The notes under the pieces were generated by a model that had not been told where the DNA came from, ran no database searches, and worked only from the letters and a program-made list of their open reading frames with translations. The translations under genes were made by a program, and so were the position numbers. A DNA stretch of 64,000 bases from Daphnia carinata (taxonomy: Eukaryota; Arthropoda; Branchiopoda; Diplostraca; Daphniidae), in assembly GCF_022539665.2 (NCBI RefSeq), contig NC_081336.1, forward strand, positions 9,586,778 to 9,650,777, written 5' to 3'. How positions within the stretch are numbered: the first letter of the stretch is position 1; each line of letters starts with the position of its first letter. Positions 2,561-55,413 of the stretch are shown here, piece by piece.

Positions 2561-3335
2561 GTTTTATACTTTACGTTTCCAACTGATGTTTGACTCTGTT
2601 AGCAATTGCAAGGGCCATTGCTTGATCGTTGATATACCAAGGTAAATTATGTAACAGGCACAAACAAACACAAGATGACAACAGAATTTCGATATCAATT
2701 GTCGACCTTTATTACTTTTACTATCTTTATTTATGATGTACAGATTTTACTGATACACAGAAACAATGTTAAAAATTTAAGTGGTTTTCATCTACATGTC
2801 ATTAGTTGATTGCTCATTACGTTGATTGTACGTGGCACATTCATATCACGAATTTGCAACTTGGATACTACGACTACCGAAGAGAACGAGTCTCACTAGT
2901 TACGCATCTTAAGTATTTTGATACTGAACTGGCTCACACATGCAAGACTAAAGGTACATTAAGCAGCACATGATTGAACGAGCAAAAATCCAATGAATAT
3001 CATTGAATCATATTAAATATTAGGTACTTTACAAGCAGTAGAAATACTTTCCCATGATGACGCTACTGCGGCAACGAATTCTGACACTGCACCCGGTTGG
3101 CACAGCAGTCACATATCCGAAGCCTTTCATTCTCAAAAAAGCCTCAAAATGGATAAGGCGCGTGACAAGAATGTTGGCAAACACACACAAATCTTTTGAA
3201 TATCGAGAATTGCTCGGTGTCAATCTAAACACAAACTATTGACGAAGGTCTAGAGTAGTTTGTTCCGTCAGCTTTTACCTAAGAAATACTAAGGCCTTGT
3301 ATATGAGCTTCAACGATGTATGTCGTGTTGTTGCT
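2561..3335. other. Intergenic / 3' flank of the aquaporin gene
   Basis: AT-rich sequence with only short random frames. The part next to 3336 presumably holds the 3' UTR of the minus-strand aquaporin gene. I see no conserved element. Confidence 0.5.
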
Positions 3336-4749
3336 TCACATTGGCGTGACTATGCTGCATCCAATGTATTCTTCGTGGCTTTGCCTCCTCGTCACTTTGA
3401 TGACGTTTGATTTGTTATCGGATACGTTGGTCATTGCGTATTCGTAGTCCACCATCGGCAGTTGCGAATCCGTTCCATCTGTTCCGACCGCTGGTCGTTC
3501 CAATCGCAAGAAAACGGAATGAAAAATGCCGACGCCGAGAAGGGCTCCCACATGTGGCCCGACCAGGAAAATCCAAAACCAATTGTAGCCGCGGAAGCTT
3601 TAACCAATGATTTTCTTAATTAGGAAAATTATCCTAAATAATAATAGTTAAAAGTTACCTAAATACGCGAGATCCCCATCCTCCGAAATACGTGACTAAA
3701 CGAGGAGCCAAATCACGAGCCTGTTTTCGAAATAAAAGAAATGAAACGATTCAATGAATGTCATTAATTGGTAATCACAGGCTTTATTGCTACAGTACCG
3801 GGTTAAGAGCGTAGCCTCCGTTAGATCCGTAGGCGACGCCGATGGCCAACAAGGTGAAACCGATGTAGAGCGGCTGCAAGAAATTGGGCACTTTGGAATA
3901 TTTGGAGTTGGTCACGACGCAAATGATCAGCATGAAGATCATGGTCGATAAAATCTATCGCAAAAATAGAAGTGAATGATTTATTATGACCGTATCGATT
4001 TTCTATTCCTACTGCATCCGAATAAGAAATACCTCTTCCATTAGGCCGGTAACAACAGATGAATAAGGGGTGGGATAATTAGCGAAAATGGCTGCCGAAC
4101 CCGGTTCCGGTTCGGATGAATTGGAATTGATTCGAAACTCGCCGTTGGTTTTCCTAATAGCTATGGCTTCTGTAAATGTAAGGAAATATGCAACGTTCGT
4201 GAGTTGTTATATAATGAATTTTTATTTGCCATTTGTGTAATTACCGTAGTAGATGCCTAGAACGGTGCCGGAAGCGACCAGAGCTCCAGAGTACTGCGCT
4301 AACCAATAGGCAGGAAGCCTCTTCCAGGGGAAATCTTTGGCCACGGCCAGGGCCATCGTCACGGCCGGATTCAAGTGACCACCTGTAATCAAAAACAAAC
4401 AATTGAATCCTGTTCATTTAACTTTAATCTTATTACATTAACACAAATACCTGACGCTTTGGCCGACACTAGGATTCCTAACGAGCAACCTAAAGCCCAT
4501 CCCCAGTTGATGGTAAAGTAATCGCCTTTCTTGCCATTCGTCAATTGCGATTGAGCTACGCTGCCACTTCCAATAGTCTTTAAAAAACAAATGAATGTTT
4601 AATTGAGTTGTCTTCGATAGGCTAATATTAATCTCAATACTCACGACGAGGATAAAAGTGCCAATGAACTCTGCCAAAACGGCTCGAATCAGACTGGGGA
4701 AATTGCAATTAGTAGTAGACGAGTTTTCATCTCGTTTATCGTTCGCCAT
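3336..4749 (-). CDS. Aquaglyceroporin (MIP family channel)
   Basis: Seven coding exons on the minus strand (4645-4749, 4451-4577, 4245-4382, 4033-4169, 3799-3954, 3659-3720, 3336-3597) join in frame to 328 residues, normal for the family. The first NPA box is GGHLNPAVTMA. The second is split by an intron: YALNP then ARDLAPR. The Asp after NPAR (NPARD) is typical of glycerol-conducting members, so transport of glycerol or other small solutes as well as water is inferred. The N-terminus reads LAEFIGTFILV, the usual first membrane helix. The C-terminal cytosolic tail is hydrophilic. The start is the ATG at 4749, preceded by AAA. An upstream minus-strand frame (ATG at 5219) has a hydrophobic N-terminus and a good GTAAGT donor near 4988, so an alternative 5' exon is possible. 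Confidence 0.93.
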
Positions 4750-30444: not shown

Positions 30445-33400
30445 ATGGAAGGACAAGGGAGTCTTCCACCACAAATATCTGCTGAAGCTGAACAATTAAT
30501 TCACGCAGTTGATGTTGCCTTATCCCCAGTAGTTTCAGCCGAAGAAAGAAACCAAGCCTACAATTTGTGTGAAAGATTCAAAGAAGAATCACCGTTGTGT
30601 GCGATCGTTGGCCTGCAGCTTGCTGGCTCAGCTAGAAGTCCAACTATAAGGCATTTTGGTCTGCAGCTAGTAGAGCACTGCATTAAATTCAGATGGAAAG
30701 ATATGCATCCCCAAGAAAAGCTCTCGATTAAAGTATCACATTTTATTTGCTTCAAAAGAAAATTATTGACATACAAATTTGTAATAGGATTCTGTGTGGA
30801 AGCTTATGGGAAATGGCACTGACATGAGTGACCCTTCATACATTAAAGACGGCACTGCTAGATTGGTAGTGGAAATGGTAAAACGAGAATGGCCTCAGCA
30901 GTGGCCCAACTTCCTTCAAGAGCTCACCAACCTTTCTCAAAGTGGGAAAGAATACCAAACTGAGGTTCATAAATTCTTTTCTTAACTAACAAAACATTTT
31001 AAATCTAAAGTTTTCTTTTGCTTTCAGTTGGTGCTTTTAGTTTTACTTCGTTTAGCAGAAGATGTGGCCGTTTTTCAATCAGTAGATGCTGTTAGACGCA
31101 GAGATCTTCAACAGGGACTTACGGCAAATATGGCAGAGATTTTTGATTTTCTTTCCCGGCTATTGCGCGTTCAAGTGACCGCCTATCATGATCGGAAGTT
31201 GGCCGGATCTCCTGCTGCACAATTTTCATGCCGGCTTGCTCTGTCGGTTATTACCGTCTTTCAAAGTCACGTCGAATGGGTTTCAATCAACCACATTATG
31301 GCCCACGAAGGGCAACTGCTAGTCCTGCTGTGTACCCTGCTCTCCGACGAAAATTTTCGATTACCCGCAGCTGAATGTCTTCTCCAGGTAAAGGTGTGTT
31401 AATCAATTTAACATCTTAAATTAATAATTTTTCCTCTAACAGATTATAAGCCGTAAAGGTCCAGCCAAAGAGAGATCACCATTACTCGTTCTCTTTAATC
31501 AAGGAGCCATAGCTTCAATGCTTGAATCTGCACAGTTGGCTTCCGCGCAGCCTCTGACCGAAGTAAACTACAATTTCTTGAAACGCCTCACTGAAGTCCT
31601 AGTTGGAATGGGCACGCAATTGTGCAGTCTGTTCGGCAAAGAACCTGAAGTTACGAAACCAGATACGTTTGCCATGTATCTTCAAGCTGTTTTGGCACTG
31701 ACCCGACATCAAAGTCTGAGCATTAATCAAACGGCTGCCACCTTGTGGGTTGCCCTCTTCAAACACGATCGTTTAAACACAGAACTGGAACTGCTGGCCG
31801 TTATCGAGGCCTGGATTGCAATTGCAGCTCGCAAGTTTGTGAAGACATCCGTTTGCGCTTATAACGCGATGGATTTTGATTCCGATGAAGAGTTCACCGC
31901 ATTTCATCAGCGTCTACGGTCGGAATTGATTGACGCCGTACGCCTTGCTACTGCGTTAGCACCATCCGTGACCTTCTCCTACGCTCACCGATGGCTACTC
32001 AGCCAACTAGATAATCCTAATTCAATTCTAGCTGAATGGGAAGCTTTAGCCTTGTTTCTCGATTCCGTGGCCTGTAAGGCCAAAGAGGCACCAGCCGGGC
32101 CCCAACTACTAGAACGCTGTTTGAATTACCAATCCAGCGATCCTTCTATCCTCTCGGAATTGTTGTCCTGCATTTCAGCACTGTTCGTCTACGTCCAGCA
32201 CGATTCCCAGCGATTACTTCAACCAGTTCTCAATCGCATATTTTCTTCAGTCCTTTTTAGCGGACCCGGTCAGTCTAAAGAAAACCGCACCAAGATAGTC
32301 CGCAATGTTCGCCGACACGCCTGTTCGCTCTTGGTGAAAATCAGTATGCAACATCCCGGTCTACTAGTTCAACAATTTCAATATCTTAAATCGAATATCG
32401 ATCGACTCGGCAAAACCCAAGACGATTCTCAATTAAGTCGGATGGAAGTATTAACCTTGCAAGAAGCCCTACTCATCATATCAAATCAATTCACAGAATT
32501 TCAAATGAAATGCGATTTAATTGGCGAAATTATTCGACCAGCAGCGCAACAATGGACGGCCATGAGCCCAGCTTTTAATTCGGCTAAAGAATTTTTATCT
32601 TTCATTGGTCTGGACCGGCCACCATTGGAACCTTCAGTCGAAGATGTCCATGGTCGTAATCGATCAGAGCTGCTGGCCAGCACGTCGGTGTTCTTGGCTG
32701 TTTTGAAACGTTGTCGCACATCGATCGATCCATTGAAAGGTCATCCAGCTGCCCAGCACTTGGCCCCTCTGTTATTCGATACTTTCCGATTGGCTCGAGT
32801 TCTCCATCAACTTTGGGAGCCGGAAGCACAAGCTTTGCTATCTCCTGGCTATGCAAAAGCACACGATCTTCTAGAAAGCGAAATTATTAATATTTTAGCA
32901 CAAGGAGGGATGTCACAGTCGGGCATGCCGGCCTGCATTTCACAACTGAATGGCAACGTGCAAAAACAGCAGAGTCCTCTGGAACGTGTTCAAAACTTCC
33001 TGGCTCAAATCCACAATAATGTGTTCGTCATGTTGGGATCATTCGGAGAGACTCTTGGCGATCAGTTTTATGCAACACCGGGATTAGCTGTGGCTGTGGC
33101 CGGCACCACGTGCGGCCATGGAATGGAATACATCCCAGATTGCAGATTGCGTACGGTCGTCAAAGTCTTTTGTCGACCTTTCATCATCTCTTGTCCAGCT
33201 CATCTTCATCAATCGGCCATCTTGCCTTTTCTCGCTCATTTCCTTCCGGCCATGTTGCAAAGATTGGCCGGCCGGTGGCAGCAAACGATGCAGCAACAGC
33301 GCGATGAGAATCAGGCCAACCTGCAAGAAATCCTCTGTGATGTGATTGTCCGTCTCGCAACTCGAGATTACATTGAACTATTGAAGAATGTAATTTTAAC

Positions 33401-34158
33401 AATGACCACTCAATTTCAAGGAGAAGACAATGACGAAATGATGGATGCAGAAGGTTCATCTTCAGCTAGCCAAGTGGTTGCTAATGTCAGCGAGCTGGGC
33501 AAGACTGTCCTGTCCGAGCCGAATTTATGTGGCCATTTGCTTCAATTCTTATTGAGCGCCCTGTGGTGGCCAGATTCCGGCAATTCACTCAAAGCTTCCA
33601 ATATCCTTGAATCGATTGTGAAATATTGGGCTGGTCTTATACCAAGGAATTCGGCACATTTTCCTTCAAGTGAAGTGGCCTGTCTGTGTCTTTCCCACCT
33701 GCTGAATGGCATCCAGCTTTTGGGACAGCATGACGCTAATCTCAGCTCGTTGATACATTTGGGCGTGCTCATGTACGATACTTTCTTGCCCATCTATCCG
33801 GCCGCCATGTCGGAATTGATGATGAGAAATGCTGGATGTAGTCGTGAAGATGCTGATCAATACCAGGACAAGGCTTCTTCGTTGGCCGGTGGACAGAAAT
33901 TGAATCAGAAAATGGAACGATCGAAACGGGAACTCTTTCGCAAAATGACTAGCCAAGTAATGAAATTGATTTTATATTAAAGTTAAAATGTTTAAATTTT
34001 ACTTTGTGTAGATTGTTGGGCAACATTTGGCCGATTTATTCCGTAAGCCGGTGCAACTTGCCAGCCTTCCGAAAATGGGTTCGCTTAAACCCCGTCCCAA
34101 ACCGGATGCCATTGATTTGGCGGATGCTGGACTCGCCGATTTGTTTATACAGGAATGA
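30445..34158 (+). CDS. XPO5: Exportin-5 (RanGTP-dependent karyopherin)
   Basis: A nuclear export receptor; family members carry pre-microRNA hairpins and other structured RNAs out of the nucleus with RanGTP. Five exons (30445-30732, 30788-30964, 31028-31387, 31443-33956, 34012-34158) give 1,161 residues, close to the 1,204 of the human protein. Family landmarks: IRHFGLQLVEHCIKFRW early, VKREWPQQWPNFLQEL in exon 2, LLRLAEDVAVFQS and RRRDLQQGLTANM in exon 3. The long exon 4 is HEAT-repeat-like with many helical leucines. The C-terminus ends GLADLFIQE. The stop codon TGA overlaps the polyadenylation signal AATAAA (34158-34163), so the 3' UTR must be very short. The ATG at 30445 is preceded by AAAA and starts on the conserved N-terminus. 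Confidence 0.95.
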
Positions 34159-36729: not shown

Positions 36730-37149
36730 GTTTCGATTCGAGGGGGACAAACTTACAACTGGATAAATTACGTGAAAAGGAACACAGTAAGCTAAAATGC
36801 AGGAAATCGTTTATTGAACAGTTTTCGCCTTGGGAAGATAACACGAACCTTCCTTAACCATACACTAAGTTAAGGGTAAAAAGCTCTACCTAATATACAT
36901 ATATAAAGCCTTCCTTTTAACTATGTACAAAAAAAGTCACGTGTGTATCTTTAAAAATGTGATTCTAATGATATGACAACGAGTTAGATTTCGCGCCTTG
37001 ATTGCTAACCTTGCCATCTACTTTATTTATTTAATTCAGATCAATAAATTTTTAGTAAAAGAGTTCTATTTGTTTGATTCTTCAGCTACATAATTTTTCT
37101 CGAATTAAACTTGGTCGGAAATAAACTTTATATTATTTAGAAACTATTT
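36730..37149. other. Divergent promoter region of the phosphatase gene and the snoRNA host gene
   Basis: 420 bp, AT-rich, with no coding sequence. The gene on each side points away from it. Confidence 0.4.
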
Positions 37150-37721
37150 TGTAAAAAACAAAGTATGAATCGTGCAGTGTTGTATTTTCCGGAGAGGGAA
37201 ACTATTCGTGGGTGGGGAACCGAATTGACGACGTGTGCTGAAAATGATGCTGGAATCACTTGATTATCTGCATTCATCAGCTCTACATCGTGTTTCATCC
37301 AAGGTAAAATAAGAATTTTGTTAACTTCTTTAGTAAATTTATCCTTTTTCAGTTAAAATTAGTTATAAATAGAAATGTAACATACTTTCCAAAGTTTTTT
37401 TGCTGGTATTTTGTTACTTCTTCAGTTCTTGTAGAATACGTTGTCATCTGCTAAGTGCTGGTAGTTGACGGATACGAATTCCACATATTTTTTCAAACAA
37501 AATAATTCCTTGGCATAATTTCTGTAAAAAACACATTCTATTCGATTGATTCTATATCCGAACGATAAGCAAAGAAAATATGCCCCAATTATGCTTTGCA
37601 AACTCTAATTTCTATCTGTTCTACAGGCATGGATGACAATGTAGAGATGCCGTATCCTTTGGCGTGCTTTGTCTCGTTGGTGACTACTACATGTACGTTG
37701 TTAATATATTTTAAAGTAATT

Positions 37722-37803
37722 TTGAATATGATGGAAAATTTATCCACTCTGAGGTACAATGATGTATCACTAAATTCATCCTTACCTACATTCTCTGAAG
37801 CCA
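37722..37803 (+). ncRNA. C/D box snoRNA candidate 1
   Basis: C box ATGATGG (37728-37734), D' CTGA (37749-37752), C' ATGATGT (37760-37766), D CTGA (37795-37798). All four boxes are in order, and D ends 67 nt before the acceptor at 37865. I could not name an rRNA target: the segments before D' and D match nothing I recall with confidence. Confidence 0.6.
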
Positions 37804-37937
37804 TTGCTAAGATATTAACATGTTCAATGGTGTTTTCAAAGATTAAATGGTTGTCTTTTTTGCAGGAAGATTGTCTGGAACAATGAGGCCACACTGTATG
37901 ATGAAAGGTGTGTATTGAACGTTACATATTTACTAGA

Positions 37938-38017
37938 TGTTTATGATGATTTGTTATCCCTGTCATACAAGATAATGGTGATAGTTTAACAATGGTAACT
38001 TTTAATTTCTGAAGTTA
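37938..38017 (+). ncRNA. C/D box snoRNA candidate 2, predicted 28S rRNA guide
   Basis: C box ATGATGA (37943-37949, perfect consensus) and D box CTGA (38009-38012), 65 nt before the acceptor. Two segments are antisense to neighbouring parts of one conserved 28S stretch in the peptidyl-transferase region: GTTATCCCTGT (37953-37963) to ACAGGGATAAC, and GGTAACTTTT (37994-38003) to AAAAGTTACC. Two guides aimed at adjacent target sites are hard to get by chance. The rRNA sequence is from memory. Confidence 0.75.
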
Positions 38018-38186
38018 CTTGTAGATGAAGATTTGAGGTTTTCTTTGCTTTGGTTTTGATTGATTTTTATTTTCCAGTTGCTGTTCTCTCGTGTGAGGTT
38101 GCATTGAACGACCTGGGGATTGCTGCTTGGGATGTTGGCACGGAGGTAGTTATACATCTTCATTTGATCATTTTACTGTTCTTTTT

Positions 38187-38270
38187 AGGATGAAAGCTTA
38201 TTACGATGCATCCGTTATACGCGACGGCTCTGCAGCAAAAACATGAAATCACTTGCCCTCACTGAACTTA
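38187..38270 (+). ncRNA. C/D box snoRNA candidate 3, predicted 18S rRNA guide
   Basis: C box AGGATGA (38188-38194, one mismatch to RTGATGA) and D box CTGA (38262-38265), 66 nt before the acceptor at 38331. ACTTGCCCTC (38251-38260), one base before D, is antisense to the conserved 18S stretch GAGGGCAAGT. Confidence 0.65.
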
Positions 38271-38429
38271 CTTTTAGGAATTTTGTTACTCAGCGTTTAG
38301 TGCAGTTCTCTAATTGTTTTCTTTCTCGCAGGCTTAGCTGAGATCTCTTTGGCTGTTCGTCCATTTTAGTTGGATCCATATCGAACATTGCGTGAATGGC
38401 GTCATGTTATTTAGGTAAATATGTTTGTT

Positions 38430-38581
38430 TGATTTGCCTTGTTCCCAATCGCCACGCCTTCCTCCCTATTCAATGGGAAGAAAGGTGCCATATTCTTGAA
38501 AGGGATAAATTACATTGCCACGTAGGAAGCAACCGGGGTTATTTCTGCCTTAAGGTTGTGCCGTATATGGGGGCGACAGTT
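38430..38581 (+). ncRNA. H/ACA box snoRNA candidate
   Basis: In intron 38415-38633. The 5' hairpin pairs CACGCCTTCCTCCC (38452-38465) with GGGAAGAAAGGTG (38476-38488), with internal bulges like a pseudouridylation pocket. A hinge AAATTA (38508-38513) fits ANANNA. A second hairpin includes CAACC (38531-38535) with GGTTG (38554-38558). It ends with ACA at 38576-38578, three bases before the RNA end expected by rule. Target not determined. Confidence 0.55.
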
Positions 38582-38729
38582 TTCCACTATTTTTCTCATT
38601 ATCCTGTTAATGTTTTGGTGCTTTTCTTTACAGGATGGGATGCTTTCTTGTGCCCTCGAATTGTGTTCTACATTCGCGTGTTGTTGTGGCTGACTTGGTA
38701 ATTATTTCAACTTGCTTCTTGTTTTGTTG

Positions 38730-38800
38730 TTTGAATGATTATTTTTATTACCGCTCCAGGCTGAAGGACAGTGTTGATTGGTTTTCTTAAATGACATCAA
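38730..38800 (+). ncRNA. C/D box snoRNA candidate 4 (variant boxes)
   Basis: C box AATGATT (38735-38741) and D' CTGA (38761-38764) are followed by TTGATTG as C'. The D box would be ATGA (38791-38794), not CTGA, but it sits 66 nt before the acceptor. All boxes recur in the copy at 56524-56577, also with ATGA as D, so the variant is shared and not a chance error. Confidence 0.5.
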
Positions 38801-38985
38801 TTGCCTTCTTTCGATGAATTATATTTTTTCTCAGCAATTGATTCCCTTGTTTATATTCAGAATTTGCTGTGGCGGTTTCATGTCGGCTTCACGTTGTCAA
38901 TCTGATTATCACGTCGTAGGGTTGCATCGAGGGGGATGTATGGCTTCACATCTCAGGTATTATTTTTTTCTTTCTGATGCTTGTC

Positions 38986-39055
38986 TGTTCCAAATGATGG
39001 TACATCTTTCGGGTATGACATTTTTATGATTATCCCTTATTTCACTGATGGAACA
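38986..39055 (+). ncRNA. C/D box snoRNA candidate 5, predicted 28S rRNA guide
   Basis: C box ATGATGG (38994-39000) and D CTGA (39045-39048), closed by a perfect 5-bp stem GTTCC (38987-38991) / GGAAC (39050-39054). CATCTTTCGGGT (39003-39014) is antisense to the conserved 28S stretch ACCCGAAAGATG. D ends 64 nt before the acceptor at 39112. The stem and guide persist in the copy at 56.8 kb. Confidence 0.75.
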
Positions 39056-39334
39056 GTTAAGCATCGTTTCTCTTTGTTATTCTTTAATTTAATGTCTTGT
39101 CCTTTTATGCAGATCCTTATTTGGTGTATTAATACTGCATCATGTCGTGAAATGGCGCTGACTCCGTTGTGTTGGGCTGTTGATGGTTAGCAGCTCTTCC
39201 TGGAACAATTCGTTTCTGGTAATTACGGTCTTCCACCTTTTATCAATATTCTACTAGTAGTAACACTGCTTCCCCGGTGGGGTGGCATGTTTCGCCATCT
39301 CTTTACCTTATTTGGGTTTTGAGGACATCTGTTA

Positions 39335-39408
39335 CTGTCGTGATGAGTTGCTTATTGGTCCGTGTTTATGATCAAATGATTTTAACTATACAGTAAGCTC
39401 TGATGAAT
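39335..39408 (+). ncRNA. C/D box snoRNA candidate 6, predicted 28S rRNA guide
   Basis: Perfect C box GTGATGA (39340-39346) and D box CTGA (39400-39403), 67 nt before the acceptor at 39470. TTGGTCCGTGTTT (39355-39367) is antisense to the conserved 28S stretch AAACACGGACCAA. An AATGATT block inside may be C'. Confidence 0.72.
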
Positions 39409-39555
39409 TTTGTTTTTTGTATCGAGAATTTGTGCGGACTGTGGAACTTCAATTTCTTTTCTATTGGCAGGGTCTTTGTTTTGTGGCTGCAATTTCCGGT
39501 CGGCGTGTGGCATTCTTCAGGTATGTCTTTTCCACTACGCTACTTTTACGTAATA

Positions 39556-39629
39556 TGTAAAGGATGAAAAATATAAACATCAGAGCATTGGGATATGAAT
39601 TACAGTGATTATTGTTATTTCTGAATAGT
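39556..39629 (+). ncRNA. C/D box snoRNA candidate 7, predicted 28S rRNA guide
   Basis: C box AGGATGA (39561-39567) and D CTGA (39621-39624). D lies 65 nt before the acceptor that ends at 39689 (an earlier AG at 39675 is also possible). TCAGAGCATTGGG (39580-39592) pairs with the 28S stretch CCCAGTGCTCTGA if one G-U wobble is allowed. A GTGATTA block (39605-39611) may be C'. Confidence 0.68.
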
Positions 39630-40097
39630 TTAAAGTTGCTGCTTTGTTTCTTTCTTGAGGCAATGTCTAATTCAGAATCATTAATTCAGAACATCGACAA
39701 CACTGACCTTGGAGTACTGACATCTGTCACCGTCTTCTGGAGAACTTCCTGCAGAAAGCAATTACCTGGTCATAACTGCGCATATTCGAATCTCGTTCGC
39801 TTTAATAATTATATTATTTACAATTATTTAATAATTATATGTATTTAATTTTTCAATACAAAACTTAAGTGAATTCTCAAATCAAATTTTATTCCTAATA
39901 TGAAATTTATCCATCGCCATCTAGGTACTAGTGTTAGGAATAAAAGCGGTAAAATGAGCTCAGCTTACTACTTGTCTCAATTTCAGTTGTCGGGCACATT
40001 GGGCTGCAACAATTAAGAGTTCATATCAAATGTGTAAAGTGCAACTTTAAGCAGTGAATTTTGACTAATTACTTCTGAACAATCTGAAAACTGGGAT

Positions 40098-40142
40098 CAT
40101 GTAAATGGTGTGGCAGCATTATGCCACACAATTTACATGATA
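40098..40142. repeat. Near-perfect 20-bp hairpin at the edge of a long repeat
   Basis: ATCATGTAAATGGTGTGGCA is followed by a 6-nt loop and its reverse complement with one mismatch. It lies just before the 1.5 kb repeat starts. The second copy of the repeat has a remnant of the same arms at 62450-62478. It could be an element terminus or a recombination product. Confidence 0.8.
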
Positions 40143-40143
40143 G

Positions 40144-41654
40144 GTTTTAAGAAATAAAAAATAGGAAAGTAGTAGTTTTAAATAACGAGACTTTTTTTAG
40201 AGATACAGTCTTATTTTTTACGATTATGGGGCACGTTACCCATGGCGTTCGTAGCGGGAGTTTTTGGAACCATGCGAAACATAGAGAAACGGGCTTATTT
40301 TTCACAGTTATGGGTCACATTACCCGTGGCGTTCGTAGCGGGATTTTTGGAACTACAGAAAACGCATGATATAAACGTTAGGCAGTAGTCATAACGTAGG
40401 TTGCGTTAGGAAGGTGTATTTCAGTTTCCATCATCTCAACAGTGTTTTGTTTTGGTTTTTTAATTGTGGTTTTTTACCTCTACGCAAAGGATTGTGTTAT
40501 AAAAACCACTTCGAATTTGGATAACTCCAAAACTATAACTTCCAGGTAAGCCCAAATTGAATTTTCGGCACCGCCGTTGAATTGCGAGTTTGAATCATGT
40601 ATTTGTGTGGTAAACATGATCTGCCATGTCGAACATAAATCACAGATTATGAGAAAAATATTGTTACAAGATGTGCTATTTGCTATCAATATTCTGCAAG
40701 AATTGGACCTCCAATTTACTTTCTTCTGGTGATAACCATATCTGTTCCACTATCACCTTAGTTCGGATGGCTGCCAAATTAAGGTGATGGTTGTGCAACA
40801 TTAGCTTCAATTGTTATATGTGCGGTAGTCCTTTGAAGTGGTATGTAGGCCGCACCTGAAAACTGAACTATAAGAACTTTGAAAGCTCCTATTATGTTAA
40901 TTCTCTATAGTTTACGCTTGAAACTATGCAGATCTTGTGATCAATCTCGTGATCAATTACGTCGAATTTGAATAACTCCTAAACTATAACTTTCAGGTAA
41001 AAATAGACTGAAGTTTCGACATCAACGTTGAATTGCGAGTTCAAATCATGTATTGTTATGGCAATATCTAGGTTTCAGACATTAATTTTAAAAATACGAA
41101 AAGTCGGGCTTAGTTTTTTTGTCGGGCTTATTTTTAAATCTGACGAAATTGAATTTCCGCTAGATGGCAATGCAAGTTCATCAACTGTAGTGCCAGAAAT
41201 CAAACTAATTCGTTCTCGTAGAAGTTCAATCAAATCAAATGGTGTGTCAAAAAGTGTTTTCCTTTTTTGTGTTGATCAACTGACACTTATCAATGGATTA
41301 TTTTTTGTGTAATAGGTAATTGTGTGGTGAACTATCATCATACTTACTACTTAATTTTATCATCAACTATCCATCATACTTTTCTCATGCTCGTGAAGAG
41401 GTACTAGACATATATTTTCCAATAAGAATCCCATTGACATTCTTCTGCTGTTGAGAAGTAGCTCGTCAAACCAATATTGCAAAGGATGCTGGCATGCAAC
41501 CTTCTTGCCATTTCGACTGAGCCTTTCACGTAGTGTGATTTTGAGTTGAAGAGTGAGGTATTAGACTCATATTTTGGCATTCAGTGTTACAATTGCCATA
41601 ATTCTGCTTTTATTTTTAGCCCGCAACTGAAATTGCAAAGAATGCTGGCCAAGA
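40144..41654. repeat. Long dispersed repeat, copy A
   Basis: Almost identical to 62479-64000 in the same orientation, with one 10-bp length difference (copy B carries CTTGCTGATG near 63269) and scattered substitutions. The similarity reaches the window end in copy B, so the true length is unknown. Inside are two tandem duplications: a GTTACCC..GGCGTTCGTAGCGGG unit at 40231 and 40315, and a roughly 95-bp unit at 40520 and 40972. Short frames in it (starting MNCEFKSC) match nothing I know. It looks like a non-coding mobile or satellite-type element. Confidence 0.85.
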
Positions 41655-42902: not shown

Positions 42903-43201
42903 ATACACCAACATATAAATGGATATACATGTGTTAGATGTTGCTGCTGAGTCTTTGGAAGAAAGTAATATAATTATTTTATGAATGGTCAGTGTAGGGT
43001 TATCACAATAAATGTATAAATAGACATTTTGTTTTCTCGAATTCGTTTTTATAGTATGCGCAATTTAAACTTAGCCATTCTTAGTTTACGTAATCTTATA
43101 GGTTATTTGTAACATTATCTCACGTTATGTCATGTGGTAGTTACGACCATTTTAAGGTTAATATTCCCTATTGTATGCATTTATATTATTAATTGAATAT
43201 C

Positions 43202-43270
43202 TACTCATAATGGAATCGAACCATGATCTTTCGGCATACTGTGCCGATGCTCAACCATTGAGCTATGAGT
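43202..43270 (-). tRNA. Best tRNA-like cloverleaf, Thr(AGT)-like, probably a pseudogene
   Basis: On the minus strand: acceptor ACTCATA/TATGAGT (7 bp, perfect), D stem GCTC/GAGC, anticodon stem TCGGC/GCCGA (5 bp, perfect) with loop ACAGTAT, and T arm ATGG-TTCGATT-CCAT. If the loop is centred, the anticodon is AGT (Thr). Against function: position 33 is C, where U is nearly universal, and the T stem plus acceptor is one base short. Three perfect stems argue for recent descent from a real tRNA. Confidence 0.5.
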
Positions 43271-43387
43271 AATATGTGTCATGTCTCTACTTTTCGTTGT
43301 CATTCAGGGGAACATATAAACACTCGTAATAATTTTGTTTAATGGTCCTAACATAAATATAAGTCTTGTTCATTAATCAATTCACTC

Positions 43388-43453
43388 GACTGGGAATCGA
43401 TCCCAATGCTTTCGAATTATTAATCCTATGCTCTACCACTGAGCCACGAATAT
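43388..43453 (-). repeat. tRNA-like sequence 4
   Basis: A box TGGCTCAGTGG with D stem GCTC/GAGC, and B box GGATCGATTCC with T stem TGGG/CCCA, on the minus strand. The acceptor stem does not pair well. Confidence 0.5.
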
Positions 43454-53233: not shown

Positions 53234-55413
53234 TCAAACAACTGTTGCGTCGAACAGTTTTAGGATTTCGTCCTTGTTCCTAATCCAGTGGCGATTGCGT
53301 AAACAAGTTTGAGCATTCGTTCCAAATGTGTCCTTTGCATTCACATCAATTCCCAGTTGGATTAAGAGTTGAATGGCGTCAATTAAGTTTGGGCTTGAAT
53401 TTAACCAACAGAAATAATGGAGCGCATTCCATGAACGATTGTCCTTTGCATTCACATCAATTCCCAGTTGGATTAAGAGTTGAATGGCGTCAATTAAATT
53501 TGGGCTTGAATTTGATTCACACAAATAATGGAGCGCATTCCTCCCATCATTGTCCTTTGCATTCACATCAATTCCCTGTTGGATTAAGAGTTGAATGGCG
53601 TCAATTAAATTTGGGCTTGAATTCGATTGACACAAATGATGGAGCGCATTCCTTCCATCATTGTCCTTTGCATTCACATCAATTTCCAGTTGGATTAAGA
53701 GTTGAGCGGCGTCAATTAAATTTGGGTTTGAATTGTTTAAACACAAAAAATGGAGCGCATTCATTCCCAAATGGCTCTTTGCATTCACATCAATTCCTAG
53801 TTGGATTAAGAGTTGAATGGCGTTAATTAAATTTAGGCTTGAACTGCATGCGCACAAATGGTGGAGCGCAGTCTCTCCTTGTCTGTCCTTTGCATTCACA
53901 TTAATTCCCAGTGGGATTAAGAGTTGAATGGCGTCAATTAAATTTGGGCTTGAATTTGATCCACACAAATAACAGAGCGCATTTCGTCCCCATCTGTCCT
54001 TTGCATTCACATCAATTCCCAGTTGGATTAAGAGTTGAATGGCGTCAATTAAATTTGGGGTTGAATTTGATTCACACAAATAATGGAGCGCATTCCGTCT
54101 ATCATAGTCCTTTGCAATTACATCAATGCCCAGTTGAATTAAGAGTTGAATAGCGACAATTAAATTTGGACTTGGATTTGATTTACACAAATAATGGAGC
54201 GCATTCCTTTTCTCATATATGTCTTTTGCCTTCACATCGATTCCAAGGCGAATAAAGTCGTTGATTCTTCCAAGTAGACCAGGCGATGAGTCCTTAGCAC
54301 AAAGTCGAAGAAATTCTACTTCTTTTTTTTCCAGCTAAATTGGAGAAATTTGCGATTGTCTACGTTGCTACTTGCTAACTTACAAAAATAATAATAATAT
54401 TACTTTTTTGTAAATCAATGCCAGTTGTTTGACGACTTCTGCCGAACTAATTCTTTTTTCCGGATCGTATTCCAACATTTTCCTTAGTAAGTCGTCCTCA
54501 TAATATTTGCGCAATTCGCCATCAATATCTAGGATTTAGCCACCAAGTATTCATCAATAAAAGAGTAAAATAGTATGGAAGTAAATTGAGATTACCCTTC
54601 ATATTCACGGGATCTTTTCCAATTATGTTATCGTGAATTTCTTTTTCATGTGAACCGAACAGGTGTTTTCCTTCCGAGAAAATATAACCGAAAACGAGGC
54701 CGAGGACAAACACATCGCTCTTAACGATGCCCCAATACTCCTCGTTTTCCGGCTTTTCTTCGCCTAGGAGTTTTTCCAGCACTTCGGGTGCCCACCAAGT
54801 TTTGGTTCCTCTCACTCCAGTCCACGAGTGATATCCCTTTTCGTTTACAGATTTGGCAAGTCCAAAATCAGACCATTTGATTATTATCTCTTCAATTTTT
54901 CCAGGCTTTCGCATAATGAGGATGTTTTCCGGTTTAATGTCTCGATGAATTAATCCCTTTGAATGAATGTATGCCAGGCCTGTAGCTAATTGATAGAAAA
55001 TTTCAATTGCACGTGGCATAGGTCCCTTGTATTTTTTGGGATCTTCCGATTTCAGGAAAAGTTGATCTAAAGAAGCTTCACATAATTCCAAAGCGTAGTA
55101 CCTTTTACCAAATAAAGAAAAAAATCAAAATTTTGAAATCATATTGTTATTTAAAACCAGAAAAAAGGTCACACTTAAAGTCTTGGTCCTTTTCACAGTG
55201 AAGAAGTTTGACGATGTTTGGATGATCTAACTTCAGCATAGCTTCTTCTTCTCTTTTGTCGGCACGATCTATTAGAATTCTTTTGACTGCCACTTCACGG
55301 CCTCTGAAAATTCCTTTAAATATCCTACCATAACTATCCCATAACTTCCCTTTGTATACCATACCAAAGCCACCTTCCCCTAATAGTTTCTCACGGTCGA
55401 TCCAAATTTTCAT
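53234..55413 (-). CDS. IRE1/RNase L-type protein kinase fused to ankyrin repeats
   Basis: Four exons (55175-55413, 54596-55101, 54404-54528, 53234-54334) give 656 residues. Residues 1-290 are a complete kinase: Gly loop [12 protein letters not shown], Lys in REVAVKRIL, catalytic loop [13 protein letters not shown] in KWSDFGLAK, activation segment [14 protein letters not shown], and [13 protein letters not shown] in the last lobe. [14 protein letters not shown] is the signature shared with IRE1 and RNase L. After the kinase the KEN nuclease domain of those proteins is absent; about ten 34-residue ankyrin repeats follow (core [19 protein letters not shown], then [16 protein letters not shown]). 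The order is the reverse of RNase L. A cytosolic signalling or stress role is inferred. The 102-bp repeat units are very alike, which points to recent gene conversion or expansion. Confidence 0.85.
53310..54240 (-). repeat. Array of about ten 102-bp tandem units coding for ankyrin repeats
   Basis: Units share long identical stretches such as CCTTTGCATTCACATCAATT on the plus strand. The spacing is a constant 102 bp (34 codons), so the reading frame is kept. The mirrored plus-strand frames here ([17 protein letters not shown]) are an artefact of this periodicity. Confidence 0.9.

Follow-up and report, generated by a model that had tools for sequence, protein, structure and literature searches.

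A candidate noncoding host gene for box C/D and box H/ACA small nucleolar RNAs in Daphnia carinata

We analysed a 64,000-nucleotide (nt) stretch of the Daphnia carinata genome (contig NC_081336.1, positions 9,586,778 to 9,650,777), hereafter called the window, in which nine GT-AG introns between short exons could be placed by eye, and then measured, at positions 37304-39689 of the plus strand. An initial annotation of this DNA had described a compact host gene with at least eight intronic small nucleolar RNA (snoRNA) candidates at this locus. Eight candidates were found, one in each of eight of the nine introns, with seven of the box C/D class in introns 2, 3, 4, 6, 7, 8 and 9 and one of the box H/ACA class in intron 5. 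The gene that would carry them was mapped as follows.

37627..39689, plus strand: body of the host gene, made up of internal exons and flanking introns, delimited by GT/AG strings and exon sequences
37627-37692, 37866-37907, 38078-38145, 38332-38414, 38634-38697, 38861-38956, 39113-39218 and 39471-39520, plus strand: internal exons, 42-106 nt long
37303, plus strand: 3′ end of exon 1
39690, plus strand: first position of the last exon
37304..37626, plus strand: intron 1, 323 nt, without a supported snoRNA
39939..39944, plus strand: AATAAA, a possible poly(A) signal of the last exon, proposed from the sequence only

When the exons were joined, with the start of exon 1 assumed, the longest ATG frame was 42 codons including its stop, in agreement with the earlier statement that the exons have no coding frame. 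The box search of intron 1 gave no C/D pair, its matches to Rfam were at chance level only, the fold of 37340-37560 had a z score of -0.85 against shuffles, and one hairpin of this intron that was scanned as an H/ACA pocket did not rise above chance.

Box C/D candidates and the position of box D

The seven box C/D candidates and the guides predicted for them against the large-subunit (LSU) and small-subunit (SSU) ribosomal RNAs (rRNAs) were as follows.

37723..37803, plus strand: intron 2, C box ATGATGG at 37728 and D box CTGA at 37795; predicted D guide for the LSU U1888 equivalent (snR62/U34 type); no visible terminal stem, external stem GTTAATAT/ATATTAAC in the intron
37938..38017, plus strand: intron 3, C box ATGATGA at 37943 and D box CTGA at 38009; predicted D′ guide GTTATCCCTGT for LSU G2815 (snR38 type); accessory segment TGGTAACTTTT antisense to the neighbouring rRNA
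38182..38270, plus strand: intron 4, C box AGGATGA at 38187 and D box CTGA at 38262; predicted D guide ACTTGCCCTC for SSU G601 (human number; the U103/HBII-251 target)
38730..38799, plus strand: intron 6, C box ATGATTA at 38735 and D box ATGA at 38791; predicted D′ guide TACCGCTCCAG for LSU G2619 (snR67/U31 type)
38989..39053, plus strand: intron 7, C box ATGATGG at 38994 and D box CTGA at 39045; predicted D′ guide ACATCTTTCGGGT for LSU G805 (snR39b/SNORD2 type); long terminal and external stem
39335..39408, plus strand: intron 8, C box GTGATGA at 39340 and D box CTGA at 39400; predicted D′ guide TTGGTCCGTGTTT for LSU A649 (U18/SNORD18 type)
39556..39629, plus strand: intron 9, C box AGGATGA at 39561 and D box CTGA at 39621; predicted D′ guide ATCAGAGCATTGGG for LSU C2197 (snR76/HBII-180 type)

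All seven introns fit the arrangement expected of a box C/D snoRNA, a C box (RUGAUGA) and a D box (CUGA) 40-75 nt apart. One-base departures occur in the C box of introns 2, 4, 6, 7 and 9 and in the D box of intron 6, where the non-canonical ATGA was counted. The terminal stem that closes C and D was clear in intron 7 and weak elsewhere, with an external stem in intron 2.

The distance from the end of the D box to the 3′ splice site was 67, 65, 66, 66, 64, 67 and 65 nt in introns 2, 3, 4, 6, 7, 8 and 9, so that the D box ended 64-67 nt ahead of the acceptor in seven out of seven cases, as the initial annotation had stated. The value for intron 9 was measured to the downstream of two acceptors that are 14 nt apart (39689, giving 65 nt); the upstream one (39675) gives 51 nt. 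When the intron interiors were shuffled with dinucleotides preserved and the ends fixed, 0.033 of the nine introns were expected to have C/D boxes with a D box at 64-67 nt, compared to the seven that were seen, and 0.61 introns were expected when the spacing was left free. This control is lenient and its probability is not to be taken literally, since we selected the splice sites manually and widened the box patterns (e.g. GGATGAA and ATGA) after the candidates had been seen. A stricter automatic scan of both strands of the whole window required [AG]TGATG[AGT], CTGA and, 60-71 nt downstream, an acceptor rich in pyrimidines. It had five matches, of which four were at the locus (introns 2, 3, 7 and 8) and one was elsewhere on the other strand. 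The earlier assertion that chance would not keep such a spacing was thus borne out in the lenient control, but not as a novelty: the regular spacing is a signature of splicing-dependent biogenesis and a known constraint.

Intron 8 differs from the other C/D introns in the distance from donor to C box, which is 121 nt compared to 35-43 nt. The fold of the first 120 nt of this intron (39219-39339), located 5′ of the SNORD18-like candidate, was better than that of shuffled sequences (z -2.39, with 4 of 200 as good), and a look for boxes and function in this segment recognised neither.

Guide segments and their predicted rRNA targets

The reference rRNAs were taken from eukaryotic ribosomal DNA present in eight contigs filed as bacterial, together with a fragment in a contig of a viral collection, and five of these nine loci were used. 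Agreement among the aligned rows marks conserved sites, because the rows are only 52-67% alike. We compared 13 guide positions to four aligned LSU rows and four aligned SSU rows, scored each by averaging its three best rows out of four, and repeated this with 40 shuffles for each position. None of the 40 shuffles reached the score of the D guide of intron 4 or of the D′ guides of introns 6, 7, 8 and 9, and a single shuffle reached that of the D′ guide of intron 3. For the other seven positions the score was reached by 20-37 of the 40 shuffles in six cases and by two in the case of the intron 6 D position.

Six C/D guides paired in register with conserved rRNA, the target base lying five nt from D or D′, with 9-14 nt of complementarity; the duplex of intron 9, for example, was 13-14 nt long on two references (L005 and L002) and 9 nt on two others (L004 and L003). 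The seventh guide, from intron 2, found its register only on the Rfam LSU consensus. Together with two H/ACA pockets whose best match was conserved (see below), this went beyond the at least five antisense candidates that had been claimed. Duplexes supported by a single rRNA, such as that of an ATGA guide in intron 2 on L004, were dropped as not conserved.

The target bases, given in brackets, were ACAG[G]GATAAC, CTG[G]GGCGG, ACCC[G]AAAG, AAAC[A]CGGACC and TGCC[C]AGTGC in the LSU and GGAG[G]GCAAG in the SSU. The yeast numbers of other sequences are an assumption on our part, drawn from the yeast rRNA and from a few internal spacings that were checked. With these numbers the LSU registers agree with published yeast sites, which are listed with their guides as G2815 (snR38), G2619 (snR67), G805 (snR39b), A649 (U18) and C2197 (snR76) (PMC8307265). 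The sites tabulated for chicken in PMC2653536 and those in PMC3511168 are likewise in line with the target registers.

The SSU site of intron 4 lies 26 nt before the U of a GGUAA motif in L004 and L009; in L005 this anchor was not found at the right place. We take that U to be U588 and the human number of the intron 4 site to be 601. The chicken sites given in PMC2653536 are G562 for HBII-251/U103 and U588 for HBII-135, and because these are also 26 apart we regard intron 4 as a U103-type guide. For intron 2, 13 of 16 positions of the D guide are complementary to the Rfam LSU consensus in the register of the U1888 site, which is common to human U34 and yeast snR62 (PMC3511168). The target region has a related sequence in L005 and is diverged in the other references, and the guide predicts AAUGUAGGUAAGG around U1888 in the species' own rRNA. 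All seven C/D candidates can therefore be tied, by complementarity, to conserved 2′-O-methylation sites, intron 2 through the Rfam consensus only.

Intron 3 also contains a second antisense segment. It matches AAAAGTTACCA, which adjoins the primary target, in each of the five LSU references covering this part of the molecule. Masking of the primary site left an accessory run of 10 nt, a length that 2000 shuffled versions of the segment never attained within 45 nt of that site on L004. Extra pairing to rRNA was reported for more than half of the box C/D snoRNAs examined in a yeast study (PMC5389607).

The intron 5 candidate and the reading of the locus

The remaining candidate is of a different class.

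38440..38581, plus strand: intron 5, box H/ACA candidate, H box AAATTA at 38507 and ACA at 38576, 3 nt from the proposed end; predicted 5′ pocket for LSU pseudouridine (Psi) 2826 and 3′ pocket for Psi2880 (snR34/U65 type)

The best conserved match was ACTGGC[U]UGUGG for the 5′ pocket and GTCGGC[U]CUUCC for the 3′ pocket, and these two targets are 54 nt apart in L005, L009 and L002. Yeast snR34 has Psi2826 and Psi2880 as its two targets (PMC8307265), and the spacing agrees with an snR34 assignment because 2880 minus 2826 is 54. In chicken U65 the 5′ and 3′ pockets are assigned to 28S positions 3858 and 3912, again 54 apart (PMC2653536), and the order of the targets and their assignment to the hairpins are the same in intron 5. 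We accepted intron 5 as an snR34/U65-type candidate because both pockets jointly fit the two targets of one known RNA.

We read the locus as a noncoding RNA polymerase II host gene of the UHG/SNHG type, which would carry seven box C/D snoRNAs and one box H/ACA snoRNA and be dedicated to rRNA-modification guides, and we put the probability of this at roughly 0.94. The mixed noncoding host is supported by the positions of the boxes, the spacing in the introns and the guide–target matches to conserved rRNA, all of which are direct observations, as is the lack of a frame.

A number of results weigh against this reading. The comparison to Rfam with Infernal that had been proposed as a check failed at gathering scores, where none of the eight candidates at the locus passed and only two tRNAs elsewhere in the window were found. 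The reference rRNAs belong to organisms other than the species that carries the locus, and we infer transcription, splicing, processing and modification from sequence. The D′ boxes of intron 3 (CATA) and of introns 7, 8 and 9 (ATGA) are non-canonical and were chosen when the duplexes were already known. In intron 2 the target base U1888 is itself a weakly conserved c in the Rfam consensus, and on the four contig rRNAs 35 of 40 shuffles were as good as the guide. For intron 5, no Rfam family was matched at E values up to 10, and the fold energy of the H/ACA region was no better than that of shuffles (z -0.24). Each pocket taken alone was reached by 10 of 200 and 15 of 200 shuffles when the edges were allowed to slide by 3 nt. 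The top score of the 3′ pocket on single unaligned rRNAs was at another site, in the SSU of L002, and the pairing of the 5′ pocket, 7+4 nt on both L004 and L003, fell to 5+4 nt on L005, L009 and L002. Finally, we count 20 nt between the 5′ pocket and the H box, more than the usual 14-16 nt.

Intron 5 is thus where the mixed-host reading is least certain. If the C/D snoRNAs are real and intron 5 has no H/ACA snoRNA, the gene would be a C/D-only host like human UHG and GAS5, and the lack of an Rfam match, the unexceptional fold energy and the shuffles that reach the single pockets would all be expected. We nevertheless consider this unlikely, since the two snR34/U65 targets are precisely what the pockets match best among conserved sites, each on the corresponding hairpin, and since the intron has both an H-type box and, 3 nt before the proposed end, an ACA. 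Of the H/ACA-like fold that the initial annotation had seen in one intron, both upper stems are present in the centroid fold, but the fold as a whole is no more stable than shuffles and its total energy is not unusual.

The Rfam gathering score is a detection threshold and not a biological definition. In E-value mode several C/D candidates stood out, and three introns had a match at E < 0.002: intron 8 to SNORD18 (36.2 bits, cut-off 41, E 0.0004), intron 7 to SNORD2 (33.3 bits, cut-off 37, E 0.0009) and intron 6 to ceN63 (31.4 bits, cut-off 65, E 0.0015) as well as to SNORD31 (22.3 bits, cut-off 40). Intron 3 matched snoR38 (30.9 bits, cut-off 45, E 0.05), and intron 2 gave a weak match to snR62 over its second half (25.2 bits, cut-off 55, E 2.6). 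Intron 4 had no match up to E 5, and intron 9 had none spanning C to D up to the same value. Scores below threshold, together with the degenerate boxes of introns 4, 6 and 9, might also be expected from a decayed or duplicated host copy that no longer makes functional snoRNAs. Such a copy is very improbable here, because six guides retain 9-14 nt of in-register complementarity to conserved rRNA and the D-box spacing is retained in seven of seven introns. A protein-coding gene that hosts snoRNAs incidentally, with its exons misread, is scarcely credible: the start of exon 1 and the ends of the gene are not fixed and many snoRNA hosts encode proteins (30% of expressed fly hosts encode ribosomal proteins; PMC13228274), but the spliced exons hold no ATG frame beyond the 42 codons given above.

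In the mixed noncoding host that we favour, the primary transcript would be spliced and introns 2-9 would each release one snoRNA by debranching and exonuclease trimming, with the assembly of the C/D particle coupled to splicing, a coupling that would set the distance of 64-67 nt between D box and 3′ splice site. Fibrillarin would then be guided by the C/D ribonucleoproteins (RNPs) to LSU U1888, G2815, G2619, G805, A649 and C2197 and to SSU G601, and dyskerin by the H/ACA RNP to LSU Psi2826 and Psi2880. The exons, once spliced, have no long frame and would probably be degraded.

Surroundings, known hosts and significance

Upstream of the host gene, an 846-codon frame at 31440-33980 (plus strand) is related to exportin-5, as searched with residues 1-400. 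Among the 120 of 416 matches listed, the best named relatives were from a dragonfly, damselflies, a mud crab and a termite at about 40-43% identity, and other listed proteins were up to 94% identical; taken alone, these relatives point to an arthropod and not to a crustacean in particular. A CACGTG E-box at 36938-36943 lies between the host gene and a gene on the minus strand that was named phosphatase-like by eye. In Drosophila, Myc is described as targeting the Uhg genes at E-boxes (PMC4430873); the site at 36938 was considered as a Myc site and kept only as a lead, the window having 11 such sites compared to 9.1 expected. Downstream, a near-perfect inverted repeat at 40099-40140, seen by eye, has a weak match to mir-147 (18.8 bits, cut-off 57) and may represent a hairpin RNA or what is left of a mobile element, and an 84-nt tandem repeat of 1.9 copies (40198-40353) is located directly 3′ of the host gene. 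The minus strand carries tRNA-Thr(AGT) and tRNA-Ile(AAT) at 43200-43452, about 110 nt apart. Further away, a 366-codon frame at 53234-54334 covers a 111-nt repeat of 8.2 copies that by eye resembles the ankyrin type, and a frame at 54522-55124 that adjoins it was named protein-kinase-like by eye.

All eight reference contigs filed as bacterial metagenome-assembled genomes (L002-L009) match eukaryotic LSU rRNA, which suggests contamination. In the LSU of L004, a contig filed as Flavobacteriales, an insertion of about 560 nt, possibly an intron or a retroelement of a eukaryote, separates the Psi2826 site from the Psi2880 site (at 3035 and 3651, compared to 54 nt apart in others).

The initial annotation had also held that mixed multi-snoRNA hosts are little described in crustaceans. 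Among the papers listed for snoRNAs in Daphnia or crustaceans and for mixed or arthropod hosts, none had a title describing such a crustacean host, in a literature collection that is incomplete and gives no proof of absence. The novelty is small, as Drosophila Uhg and human SNHG12 are of the same kind. Drosophila Uhg1-5, 7 and 8 are presented in PMC4430873 as noncoding genes without a recognisable frame, whose introns number up to 16 and, two of them excepted, carry a single snoRNA each. The Daphnia locus resembles them as a noncoding multi-intron host with one snoRNA candidate per intron and no long frame. Uhg4 is listed with seven snoRNAs, among them Psi28S-2949 and Or-aca5 in its first two introns, which are H/ACA judging by their names (PMC9710044). 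Human UHG (SNHG1) is given with U22 and U25-U31 and, like GAS5, as C/D-only (PMC7277114). Both are noncoding multi-snoRNA hosts, as here, and by name UHG has a U31-type snoRNA in common with intron 6, but neither is mixed and the remaining set of UHG differs by name. Human SNHG12 is a mixed host, with SNORA44, SNORA61, SNORA16A and SNORD99 (PMC7154078), and thus has three H/ACA and one C/D compared to seven C/D and one H/ACA candidate here, with other snoRNAs.

The single candidates also differ from their counterparts. Intron 5 has the same two pocket targets as snR34/U65 (SNORA65), for which the chicken pairing is given as 7+3 nt in the 5′ pocket and 6+5 nt in the 3′ pocket (PMC2653536), and it pairs over 7+4 and 7+4 nt on L004 and fewer on some references; it differs in lacking a match to Rfam. 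Intron 4 has the target nucleotide of U103/HBII-251, but the chicken U103 guide is at the 5′ (D′) position (PMC2653536) whereas here it is beside box D. Likewise, intron 2 has the target nucleotide of snR62/U34, whereas the Rfam snR62 model has its guide in the 5′ half and here the guide is beside box D. We regard the particular set of snoRNAs, the two guides on the D side and the mixing of classes as details and not as a new mechanism.

The guide of intron 3, its accessory segment and the 5′ pocket of intron 5 together give a nearly continuous cover of the LSU around G2815-Psi2826. It is conceivable, though we think it doubtful, that the host serves the peptidyl-transferase region as a single coordinated unit, with Psi2880 and G2619 added by introns 5 and 6. 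If true, co-splicing would balance two guides that bind side by side, one for methylation and the other for pseudouridylation.

Because the Rfam gathering scores miss all eight candidates, an annotation relying on them would report no snoRNA at this locus. The D-side guides of introns 2 and 4 would be useful for studying how guides move within snoRNAs. For an arthropod, the analysis yields nine rRNA modification sites that can be tested, each with its predicted guide, together with a candidate mixed noncoding host gene.

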